Below, one piece after another: positions 20,799 to 24,952 of a stretch of DNA of 64,000 nucleotides. This DNA is from Bifidobacterium breve (GTDB taxonomy: Bacteria > Actinomycetota > Thermoleophilia > Solirubrobacterales > Solirubrobacteraceae): assembly GCA_945878865.1 (NCBI GenBank), contig CAMCUD010000001.1, positions 1 to 64,000 of the forward strand. The letters run 5' to 3'. Every line of letters begins with the position of its first letter. Within the stretch, counting starts at the first letter, position 1. The translations under genes and the position numbers were made by a program. A model generated the notes under the pieces. The model saw only the letters and a list, made by a program, of their open reading frames with translations. It was not told where the DNA came from and did not search any database.

Positions 20799-22139
20799 AT
20801 GCCCTCGCCGACTCCCGAGGAGCGCCGCGCCGCCGGCCGCGCGCGCCGCGCGACGTCCCCGCGCTCCGCCCACGCAGGCTGGACGGCGCCGGACGACCGC
20901 GAGGACCCGATCGCGATCCTCGAGCGCCAGGCGGAGACGCGCGTGCCCGAACTGCTGCCGATCCGCTACGCGCGGATGGCGGTCTCGCCGTTCGCGTTCC
21001 TGCGGGGCGCCGCGGCGGTCATGGCCGCCGACATGCGCCACGCGCCGAGCACCGGCCTGCGCGTCCAGTGCTGCGGCGACGCCCACCTGTCGAACTTCGG
21101 CCTGTTCGCCAGCCCGGAGCGCCGCCTGGTCTTCGACCTCAACGACTTCGACGAGACGTTGCCGGGCCCGTTCGAGTTCGACCTCAAGCGGCTGGTCGCC
21201 AGCGCGACGGTCGCGGCGCGCGCGAACGGCGAGGCGCCGCGGGACGCAGCCGAGGCGGCCCGCGCCGCGGCACGCAGCTATCGCCAGGCGATGCTCGGCT
21301 TCGCCGACATGCGTCACCTCGACGTCTGGTACGCCCACGCGGACGTCGACGCCGTCCTGGCCACGCAAGCGTCGATCTCCAAGCGCACGCTGCGCGACAT
21401 CGACAAGGCGCGCACGCGGACGAGCCTCCAGGCGTTCTCCAAGCTCTGCGAGACGGTCGACGGCGCGCTGCGCTTCCGTGACGACCCGCCGATCGTCGAG
21501 CACCTGCCCATCCTCGACGACCGCCGCGCGATCGAGCGGCTCCTGCACGACTACCGGGCCACGCTGCCGGATTCGCGCCGCCCGCTCATCGACCGCTACG
21601 AGCTCGCGGACGTGGCGCGCAAGGTCGTCGGCGTCGGCAGCGTCGGCACCCGCGCGTTCATCGTCCTGCTCCTCGGCCGCGACGCCGACGACCCGCTCAT
21701 CCTCCAGGTCAAGGAGGCCGTGCCCTCCGTCCTGGAGCCCTACGCGGGCCGGTCGCGATACCGCCAGCAGGGCAAGCGCGTCGTCGTCGGTCAGCACCTG
21801 CTGCAGGCCACGAGCGACATCTTCCTCGGCTGGGTGCGCGCCGACGGCGACCGTGACTTCTACGTCCGCCAGCTGCGCGACATGAAGGGCTCGGCGGAGA
21901 TCGAGCGCATGCAGCTCGCCGAGCTCACGCTGTACGGCGAGCTCTGCGGCTGGGTCCTCGCGCGCGCCCACGCGCGGACGGGCGACCCGTCCGCGATCGC
22001 GGGCTATCTCGGCGGCGGCGAGGCGTTCGACAAGGCGATGCGCGACTGGGCGGACGCCTACGCCGACCAGACCGAGCGCGACCACGAGGCGCTGCTGCGC
22101 GCCATCGACGCCGGGCGCGTGCCCACCGCCGGGCCGTAG
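20799..22139 (+). CDS. DUF2252 family protein
   Basis: 446 residues, no signal peptide. Diagnostic DUF2252 strings: RMAVSPFAFLRGAAAVMAADM, QCCGDAHLSNFGLF, DLNDFDETLPGPFEFDLKRL and LLGRDADDPLILQVKEAVPS. The GDAHLSNFG and DFDE motifs resemble the catalytic loop and metal-binding DFG of kinase-like phosphotransferases, which suggests a small-molecule or sugar kinase fold, but no activity is established for this family. It stands alone on the plus strand next to the exopolysaccharide cluster; no functional link is evident. Confidence 0.92.
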   Translation: MPSPTPEERRAAGRARRATSPRSAHAGWTAPDDREDPIAILERQAETRVPELLPIRYARMAVSPFAFLRGAAAVMAADMRHAPSTGLRVQCCGDAHLSNFGLFASPERRLVFDLNDFDETLPGPFEFDLKRLVASATVAARANGEAPRDAAEAARAAARSYRQAMLGFADMRHLDVWYAHADVDAVLATQASISKRTLRDIDKARTRTSLQAFSKLCETVDGALRFRDDPPIVEHLPILDDRRAIERLLHDYRATLPDSRRPLIDRYELADVARKVVGVGSVGTRAFIVLLLGRDADDPLILQVKEAVPSVLEPYAGRSRYRQQGKRVVVGQHLLQATSDIFLGWVRADGDRDFYVRQLRDMKGSAEIERMQLAELTLYGELCGWVLARAHARTGDPSAIAGYLGGGEAFDKAMRDWADAYADQTERDHEALLRAIDAGRVPTAGP

Positions 22140-22145
22140 CGGCGC

Positions 22146-22991
22146 TCAGCCGGTCGACTGCACCTGCGCGATGACGTAGCAGCCGGTGCCGTCGAAGATG
22201 TTGCTCACCTCGATGGTCGCGACGTGGTCGGTGCTCGCGGCGTCGGTGTAGCCGAGCTGCCAGGTCACCGTCTGATCGCCACCCGCGTTGGCGACGGTGT
22301 TCGAGTTGCCGCTGCCGAGCCAGACCGTGCTGACCACCGGCGCGACGCCGTTGCGCATCGAGGTCTTGTGCACGGTCACCGTGCTCCCGGAGTCGTTGGC
22401 GTACGTCGAGGTCGCGTCGCCGCTCGTGCACGTCGCGCTGAGCTTGCCGAAGCCGGGAATCGTCGCGACGGAGATCGTCTGCCCGTTGGTGAGCTGGCGA
22501 TGGAAGCTCGTGACCGCGCCGCGGCCCGAGATCACCGTGTTCGGCGCGATCTTGCCCAGCGTCACCGCGCCGTCGGCGATCGCGGCACCGCCCACCGCAC
22601 CGGCGGCGAGCTTGCCCGACGTCACCGCGCCCGCGCCGATCTTGGTCTCGGACACCGCGCCGGAGCCGAGCTTGGAGTCGGTGACCGCGCCGTTCTGGAG
22701 GTTCGAGGTCTGGATCGCGCCGTCGGCGATCTTGCCCGCCGTGACCGCGCCCGTCCGCAGCTTCGTCGGGGTCACCGCACCCGTGGCCAGCTTCTCGGTC
22801 ACCACCGCGTTGTTCGCGAGCTTGGAGGCGGAGACCGCGCGGTTCTTGATCTTCGCGCGTGTCACCGCGCCGGTCTTCAGCTGCTTGGTGCCGATGGTCG
22901 CCGCGGCGTACGTGACGCCGCCGAGCGAGACGAAGAGCGCGATGGTCGCGATGATCGTCGCGGGGTGAAGAAGCTGGCTGCGCTGCCACAT
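22146..22991 (-). CDS. Surface/secreted stalk protein with decapeptide repeats
   Basis: 281 residues from the ATG at 22991. The N-terminus PATIIATIALFVSLGGVTYAA is a signal-anchor with the LGG-x-x-YA motif common in secreted proteins of this lineage. Residues 42-151 are eleven tandem decapeptides (consensus AVTxxKIxxG; for example AVTAGKIADG, AVTDSKLGSG), a period that could build a solenoid or collagen-like stalk. The last 130 residues form a beta-rich head with a probable disulfide (ATCTSGD, GTGCYVIA). The DNA shows a matching 30-bp periodicity. Function is unknown; adhesion or structural display is inference. Confidence 0.78.
   Translation of the reverse strand: MWQRSQLLHPATIIATIALFVSLGGVTYAAATIGTKQLKTGAVTRAKIKNRAVSASKLANNAVVTEKLATGAVTPTKLRTGAVTAGKIADGAIQTSNLQNGAVTDSKLGSGAVSETKIGAGAVTSGKLAAGAVGGAAIADGAVTLGKIAPNTVISGRGAVTSFHRQLTNGQTISVATIPGFGKLSATCTSGDATSTYANDSGSTVTVHKTSMRNGVAPVVSTVWLGSGNSNTVANAGGDQTVTWQLGYTDAASTDHVATIEVSNIFDGTGCYVIAQVQSTG
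22539..22868 (-). repeat. Eleven in-frame 30-bp tandem repeats
   Basis: Coding repeat with the conserved core GCGGTGAC (seen as gtcaccgcg on the plus strand) recurring every 30 bp and degenerate third positions. It encodes the decapeptide stalk of the surface protein. Divergence at synonymous sites indicates an old, selected array rather than a recent slippage product. Confidence 0.85.
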
Positions 22992-23034: not shown

Positions 23035-23826
23035 TCACCCGATGAGGCGGATGCGCGAGCGCCAGACCGCGAGCACCCACATGAGCGCGGCGAACGCCAG
23101 CAGCGCGGCGACGTGCACGAGGTCCCCGGCATCCAACCCGCCGAGCACCAGCGCGCGCACGAGCTGGACGCAGTGGTACAGCGGGTTGACGTGCGCGATC
23201 GCCTCCATCCCGCGCGGCAGCCCGGAGATCGGGAAGAACGTGCCCGAGACGAGGAACAGCGGCGTGATGACCGCGCTCGTGACGTAGTTGAAGTTGTCGA
23301 TCGACTTCGCGACCGCGCTGATGAGCACCCCGAACGACGCGAAGCCGAACCCCGTGAGGAACCCGACGAAGGGCACGAAGACGGTCGTCCACCGCGGGTC
23401 GAGCCCGAACGCGATCGCCACGAGCAGCGGCGCCATGCAGTAGACGCCCGCGCGGCAGGAGATCCAGAGGATCTCGGCGGTGACGAGCTCCTCGGTGTCG
23501 ACGGGGGCGGCGAGCATCGCGTCGTACGTCCGCTGGAACTCGCGCCGCACGAACGTGTTGAACATCCCGGCGAAGACGGAGGAGAACAGCGCGGCGCTGG
23601 CGACGACACCCGTGCCGACGTACTCGATGTAGTCGATGCCGTTGACCTGGGTGACGAGCGCGCCGAAGCCGAAGCCGAAGGCCAGCAGGTAGATCGTCGG
23701 CTCGACGATGGAGGAGAACGTCGTGGCCTTCCAGTACCGCCGGAAGATCATGACGTCGCGGCTCATCACGCCCGCGATCGCGGCGGGCTCCAGGCGGCGG
23801 GGACGGCGCGAGGCGACGGCGCTCAT
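23035..23826 (-). CDS. ABC-2 type transporter permease
   Basis: 263 residues, six hydrophobic helices, of the NodJ/DrrB class: FRRYWKATTFSSIVEPTIYLLAFGFGFG at the first helix, EFQRTYDAMLAAPVDTEELVTAEI in the coupling region and PLFLVSGTFFPISGLPRGMEAIAHVNPLYH near the end are typical. It pairs with the ATPase at 24053 to make an exporter for a lipid, drug or polysaccharide. It is preceded by a 28-codon gene that ends 19 nt upstream and shares its transcript. Confidence 0.92.
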   Translation of the reverse strand: MSAVASRRPRRLEPAAIAGVMSRDVMIFRRYWKATTFSSIVEPTIYLLAFGFGFGALVTQVNGIDYIEYVGTGVVASAALFSSVFAGMFNTFVRREFQRTYDAMLAAPVDTEELVTAEILWISCRAGVYCMAPLLVAIAFGLDPRWTTVFVPFVGFLTGFGFASFGVLISAVAKSIDNFNYVTSAVITPLFLVSGTFFPISGLPRGMEAIAHVNPLYHCVQLVRALVLGGLDAGDLVHVAALLAFAALMWVLAVWRSRIRLIG

Positions 23827-23845
23827 CGCGACCGCCGCCCGCCGG

Positions 23846-23932
23846 TCAGGTCAGCGCGTGCGGCAGCAGGTACATCGCGAAGATCACCGCGATCACGAGG
23901 CTGGTCCCGGCGAGCTGAGAGGAGAGGGTCAT
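23846..23932 (-). CDS. 28-residue single-pass membrane peptide heading the permease transcript
   Basis: Small ORF starting ATG at 23932 with a GGAG ribosome site 6 nt upstream and TGA at 23846-23848. The peptide begins MTLSSQLAGT, has a hydrophobic core SLVIAVIFAMYLL and ends PHALT: one short transmembrane helix with no charged residue. A TAGGTT box at 23968-23973 would start a transcript about 30 nt before it. The position between exporter ATPase and permease suggests a small subunit or regulator of the exporter, as with other short membrane peptides bound to transporters. Coding status is inferred from ribosome site, composition and spacing. Confidence 0.6.
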   Translation of the reverse strand: MTLSSQLAGTSLVIAVIFAMYLLPHALT

Positions 23933-23967
23933 GGTGAGCTCCGTGGGGGGCAGAGAGGTCGATGCGC

Positions 23968-23973
23968 AACCTA
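23968..23973 (-). promoter_or_regulatory. -10 box TAGGTT for the small peptide and permease
   Basis: Minus-strand TAGGTT lies in the 120-bp gap after the ATPase stop; the leader to the peptide ATG would be about 30 nt and includes GGAG. No good -35 box is visible. Confidence 0.4.
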
Positions 23974-24052
23974 CGCCGACCGCTCTGCGTCGTCCTCCGG
24001 CTCCGACCGCACATCGACTGCGGGTTCTCCCGGTCCTGCGCTGCGCAGTTCC

Positions 24053-24952
24053 TCACTCGATCTCCTCCCCCGTGAGCATCACGAACGCGTCCTCGAGCGT
24101 CGCGGCGCGGCGGACGCCCTCGGGCAGCTCGCCGTTGAGCGCCTCCGCGCGCAGGATCGCGACGGCCGGGCCGCTGCGGCGCGTCTGCCAGCCGTTGGCG
24201 GCGGCGGTGGCGTCGATCTCGGCGAGGTGGGCGGGCGGTCCGTAGACCTCGACGACCTCCTGGCCCGCGTGCGCGCGGACGAGCTCGTCGGGCGTGCCGA
24301 GCGCGACGACCTTCCCGGCGGCCATCACCCCGACGATGTCGGCGAGGCGCTCGGCCTCCTCGATGTAGTGCGTGCTCATGAGGACGGTGACGCCCTCGCT
24401 GCGCAGGCCGTCGATGAGCGTCCACAGCTCCTGGCGCACCTGCGGATCGAGCCCGACGGTGGGCTCGTCGAGCAGGACGAGGTCGGGCTGGTGGACGAGC
24501 GCGCGGCCGATGAGCAGGCGGCGGCGCATGCCGCCCGACAGGTCGGTGACCTTCGCGTCGGCGCGGTCGGTCAGGCGCGCGATCCGCAGCGACCGGTCGA
24601 TCGCCTCGGCGCGCTCCCCGCGCGGGACGCGATACAGGCGGCAGAACACCTCGAGCGTCTGGCGGACGGTGAGCTCGACGTCGAGGTTGTCCTGCTGCGG
24701 ACAGACGCCCATCCGCAGGCGGGCGGCCTTCGAGTCGCCGGGCACCTCGTGGCCGAGGACGTGGATCTCACCCTCGTCGGCGAGCGCCTGCGCGGTGAGC
24801 ATGCGCATCGTCGTCGACTTGCCCGCGCCGTTGGGGCCGAGCAGGCCGAAGCAGATGCCGGCGGGAACCTCGAGGTCGAGCCCGTCGACGGCGGTGAGCG
24901 CGCCGAAGCGCTTGACCACGCCGCGGATCGAGATGGCTGGGACAGACGCCAT
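24053..24952 (-). CDS. ABC transporter ATP-binding protein (DrrA/NodI class)
   Basis: 299 residues. Walker A GLLGPNGAGKST, Q-loop VCPQQDNLDVELTV, signature DLSGGMRRRLLIGRAL, Walker B LVLLDEPTVGLDP and switch MSTHYIEEAERLADIV are all intact. The extra C-terminal 80 residues (VVEVYGPPAHLAEI onward) are typical of DrrA/NodI-type exporters. It energises the ABC-2 permease encoded downstream. TAGGCT at 24960-24965 ends 7 nt before the ATG, so the mRNA is probably leaderless. Confidence 0.95.
   Translation of the reverse strand: MASVPAISIRGVVKRFGALTAVDGLDLEVPAGICFGLLGPNGAGKSTTMRMLTAQALADEGEIHVLGHEVPGDSKAARLRMGVCPQQDNLDVELTVRQTLEVFCRLYRVPRGERAEAIDRSLRIARLTDRADAKVTDLSGGMRRRLLIGRALVHQPDLVLLDEPTVGLDPQVRQELWTLIDGLRSEGVTVLMSTHYIEEAERLADIVGVMAAGKVVALGTPDELVRAHAGQEVVEVYGPPAHLAEIDATAAANGWQTRRSGPAVAILRAEALNGELPEGVRRAATLEDAFVMLTGEEIE

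Follow-up and report, generated by a model that had tools for sequence, protein, structure and literature searches.

The 64,000-nt stretch analysed here (the window) carries, on its minus strand, an ABC transporter operon in which an ATPase gene is followed by a permease gene. The pair resembles NodIJ and DrrAB, with family scores for both genes under the NCBIfam cut-offs. Between the two genes lie two open reading frames (ORFs), which are read in different frames: a 77-codon ORF that touches both neighbors, referred to as the relay ORF in the following, and a 28-codon ORF that could encode a small hydrophobic peptide (Table 1).

Table 1. Features at the ATPase-permease junction, with their positions in the window
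Feature	Position	Strand	Properties
ABC ATPase gene (NodI/DrrA-like)	24053..24952	(-)	Pfam PF00005; NCBIfam scores below curated cut-offs; syntenic in congeners
ABC-2 permease gene (NodJ/DrrB-like)	23035..23826	(-)	Pfam PF01061; 84-86% identical in congeners
Gap between ATPase stop and permease start	23827..24052	(-)	From alignment to L062 and L063
GGAGGAG, strong Shine-Dalgarno site	24062..24068	(-)	Inside the 3' end of the ATPase gene, 5 nt before GTG 24056; from sequence and duplex energy
77-codon relay ORF	23823..24056	(-)	Starts with GTG within GTGA (24056-24053), across the ATPase stop; ends with TGA within ATGA (23826-23823), across the permease start
28-residue ORF	23846..23932	(-)	Single helix predicted, hydrophobic; side chains uncharged, one His
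GGAG, Shine-Dalgarno site of the 28-codon ORF	23939..23942	(-)	6 nt 5' of the ATG; -5.8 kcal/mol
TAGGTT, possible internal -10 box	23968..23973	(-)	TAGGNT is enriched between genes

The junction was compared with those of two congeners, Svornostia abyssi J379 (CP088295.1; L062) and a second one (L063), in which synteny holds on both sides and through both genes. In both, the permease ATG lies 2 nt past the ATPase stop. The strong Shine-Dalgarno site of the permease in these relatives (-13.6 kcal/mol) sits within the last ATPase codons and is retained in the window, where the ATPase also ends at the same position as in the relatives. In the window, the permease also possesses its own Shine-Dalgarno-like stretch (-8.5 kcal/mol). 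Taking the gap and the extended 5' end of the permease together, the window is 248 nt longer than S. abyssi. The alignments place about 230 nt of extra DNA in the window lineage exactly at the presumed ancestral overlap, and we infer that this DNA was gained here rather than lost elsewhere. The extra segment occurs as a single copy in its own genome; it is not flanked by direct repeats, and just two short inverted repeats were found. The region has no match in Rfam, and its RNA fold is no better than that of shuffled sequences (z 0.32).

The relay ORF begins and ends in overlaps with its neighbors, and the Shine-Dalgarno site in front of it (GGAGGAG) has a duplex energy of -12.6 kcal/mol. Its codon usage is not gene-like (-39.6 bits), and its 77-residue product yields scattered weak matches (E 2e-4 to 0.008), which we judged, without inspecting each of them, to be compositional (Arg-rich). 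Its stop overlaps the next start as in RTGA-coupled small ORFs; the 28-codon ORF has no such overlap, with 19 nt between its stop and the permease ATG.

To see how common such an arrangement is, we surveyed 147 non-redundant ATPase-permease junctions, mostly from the same order. In 137 of them the two genes are directly coupled, with a permease start at or near the ATPase stop, and 125 of these 137 have a spacing of -4 (97 junctions) or -1 (28 junctions). At all 147 junctions, ORFs were then traced through overlaps of -4 or -1. This led straight into the permease in 127 cases and via relay ORFs in 11, the window included; 8 junctions have no start at -4 or -1, and at 1 the trace breaks. Thus, 11 of the 12 non-direct junctions arrive at the permease, compared with a shuffle expectation of about 4.8 of 11 (product p ~3e-5, with the caveat that related junctions are not independent and that the test was made after the pattern had been noticed in the first loci, which are included among the 147). 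Chance alone often yields such a path, since stops are scarce in GC-rich DNA and the RTGA context of the permease start is retained. Nine of the relay junctions contain single ORFs, and two contain three 11-codon copies. In the latter (L028 and L192), tandem 32-nt repeats each form a complete 11-codon ORF that overlaps the next by 4 nt, and the last one ends on the permease start; here, tandem duplication makes the copies overlap for free. With these caveats of relatedness and tandem duplication, the relay pattern is supported as a set: the linkage recurs with unrelated sequences at 11 junctions, above chance when they are taken together. By eye, the extra junction DNA of two loci contains inverted repeats (GGTTCC..GGAACC in L168 and GGGAGAA..TTCTCCC in L007), which suggests small hairpin insertions.

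Given the anatomy of the junction and the recurrence of the pattern at ten further ones, we propose that the relay ORF serves translational coupling. The ATPase and the permease would originally have been coupled by a stop/start overlap of -4 or -1 nt, at which the window lineage would then have gained about 230 nt. Ribosomes finishing the ATPase would begin again at GTG 24056, where the permease used to start, with its strong Shine-Dalgarno sequence, traverse the segment in the 77-codon frame and restart once more at the permease ATGA, so that the coupling would probably have been kept. The 28-codon ORF, to judge from its coding-like statistics, would be an orphan sequence for a membrane peptide, young or captured and perhaps translated, that lies within the gained segment; it would not count among the conserved parts of the transporter. 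We give this account, extra DNA at a coupled junction that is bridged by a relay ORF and holds a possibly translated orphan sequence, an even chance of being correct. Reinitiation at native gene pairs in Haloferax and E. coli works well when the overlap is -4 or -1 and almost disappears at a spacing of about 20 nt (PMC10666635); the relay ORF is therefore placed for coupling, whereas the 28-codon ORF, at 19 nt, is not. Counting against the account, shuffles of the window junction alone yield a relay in 24% of cases, and the codon usage of the relay ORF is un-gene-like while the 28-codon frame looks coding. Moreover, the permease may start independently from its own Shine-Dalgarno-like stretch.

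Similar devices are known. In mycobacteria, small ORFs are coupled to the next gene by RTGA, and it is this linkage that is conserved, not the peptide sequence; these ORFs sit where leaderless transcripts begin and are backed by ribosome data (Shell et al. 2015, PMC4633059). The relay ORF likewise joins the next gene by RTGA, with the linkage kept and the sequence varying, but it lies between two genes and overlaps both of them. A second parallel are the mycobacterial interspersed repetitive units (MIRUs), which insert at start codons with a -4 spacing and contain an ORF that stays coupled (PMC12548453). The window segment, too, is extra DNA at a start codon with an ORF coupled by -4 nt at the insertion site; being single-copy, however, it is not an interspersed repeat, and it is MIRU-like in architecture only.

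The 28-codon ORF begins with an ATG and encodes MTLSSQLAGTSLVIAVIFAMYLLPHALT, followed by a stop. Its frame contains no further start codon 5' of 23932. The sequence-only reading had described it by its ATG, the GGAG at 6 nt, a hydrophobic core and the 19-nt spacing between its stop and the permease, and all of these are found in the sequence. Its statistics are those of coding DNA. The GC content by codon position is 0.57/0.43/0.96, similar to the 62/46/99% of the permease, and the codon likelihood ratio against the gap's own composition is 17.8 bits, which corresponds to the 53rd percentile among pieces of 28 codons taken from the genes called in the window (the codon-usage reference being a simple gene call of the window alone, in which some genes are missed). 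No ORF in 40,000 dinucleotide shuffles attains this value. The product reaches a 15-residue Kyte-Doolittle mean of 2.26, and when the 226-nt gap was dinucleotide-shuffled 60,000 times, an ORF with a mean of at least 2.2 arose in 6 cases (about 1e-4 per gap). Such a hydrophobic, coding-like ORF is still unlikely by chance over the some tens of intergenic gaps in the window, from which this striking case was hand-picked. Codon likelihood, positional GC and hydrophobicity relative to shuffles support the earlier description insofar as the ORF looks, statistically, like one that codes for a single-helix peptide.

Conservation is a different matter. No convincing homologue of the peptide was found in its own genome, in 232 genomes of the order or in a sample of 399 from the class (Thermoleophilia), nor in plasmids, phages, PDB sequences or PHROGs, and Pfam and NCBIfam gave no match at E values up to 1. 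Weak matches (E 0.1-1) include helices of larger membrane proteins; those of the weak hits that were translated fall mostly within the frames of larger proteins, with one in an 84-codon open frame. The ORF is absent from the syntenic orthologous operons of both congeners and from about 58 further orthologous junctions for which small ORFs were listed. In the genomes and collections covered, it is an orphan. The sequence-only reading had itself named missing conservation at orthologous loci as a refutation, and for a conserved subunit this is what the congeners and the other orthologous junctions show.

The orphan might nevertheless be a genuine, recently gained gene with a GGAG site of its own, from which a one-helix peptide is translated, perhaps with the internal TAGGTT as promoter, and inserted into the membrane, the relay being open by chance. 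We consider this possible, but less probable than the coupling account. It is favored by the 17.8 bits of the ORF versus -39.6 for the relay, with not one of the shuffles matching the former, by a coding signal that is restricted to the ORF, by the Shine-Dalgarno site and by the plausibility of TAGGNT boxes as promoters. On the other side, there is neither a homologue nor a second species showing selection, the peptide lacks a charged residue to set its topology, and the ORF would sit within a translated relay on a long transcript.

The TAGGTT box itself had been taken to place the ORF first on a transcript that excludes the ATPase. The hexamer is indeed there, and 11 of 16 TAGGNT sites in the window lie between genes, in 13% of the sequence, whereas a TANNNT of any kind occurs in 27% of shuffled gaps. 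A TAGGCT is found 13 nt before the ATPase in the window, and S. abyssi has a TAGGCT shortly before its ATPase start as well. TAGGNT hexamers also lie 12-16 nt 5' of several called starts (e.g. 24965, 36823, 37850, 59179 and 60654). These positions suggest that, in this organism, TAGGNT acts as a -10 box for transcripts with a short leader or none, and TAGGTT is a plausible promoter box. The transcript without the ATPase, by contrast, is possible but hangs on this one hexamer. Scans for sigma-70 consensus promoters and for terminators found nothing.

Alternatively, the segment could be a captured fragment of a membrane-protein gene, in which case the coding statistics would be inherited and the peptide functionless. 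This would explain coding-like codons without a conserved gene, and it would fit the weak resemblance (E 0.1-1) of the peptide to helices in larger membrane proteins. We regard it as rather improbable, since its source was found neither in the own genome nor in relatives and since the ATG, Shine-Dalgarno site and stop closely fit the coding stretch.

The interpretation originally put forward, a small subunit or regulator of the DrrAB-like exporter, encoded first on an ATPase-less transcript, draws on the position, hydrophobicity and coding statistics of the ORF. Like KdpF and AcrZ, the peptide is very short, has one hydrophobic helix and adjoins a transporter; unlike them, it has no family match, is not conserved with the transporter and carries no charged residues. 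As neither congener nor any other orthologous operon examined contains the ORF, and as the peptide belongs to no known family, the role is unsupported and appears very unlikely. Read-through of the ATPase TGA would add a membrane helix to the C-terminus, the 28-codon ORF sharing the ATPase frame within a 68-codon stop-to-stop frame that reaches back to the ATPase stop. This is barely credible, as the ATPase ends where its relatives end, a shared frame has a chance of 1/3 and the intervening codons appear non-coding.

Returning to the coupling account, we put forward a broader version of it only tentatively, as unlikely in its entirety: that one junction repeatedly gains DNA across an order, with the coupling kept by relay ORFs, and that the DNA gained here also became the source of an orphan membrane peptide, translated from a second frame. 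Provided that the relay ORFs are in use, selection would keep the translation of ATPase and permease linked even after extra DNA has come to lie between them, and certain unannotated small ORFs at gene junctions would serve ribosome delivery rather than peptide making. Gene-like codon statistics and a hydrophobic helix alone do not make a transporter subunit, and the relay architecture, a known kind of device seen repeatedly at one locus, is a more interesting point than the peptide. Downstream of the permease, at 21925-22989 on the minus strand, lies a protein gene in which many repeats of the GAVT..K(L/I) type can be recognized by eye.
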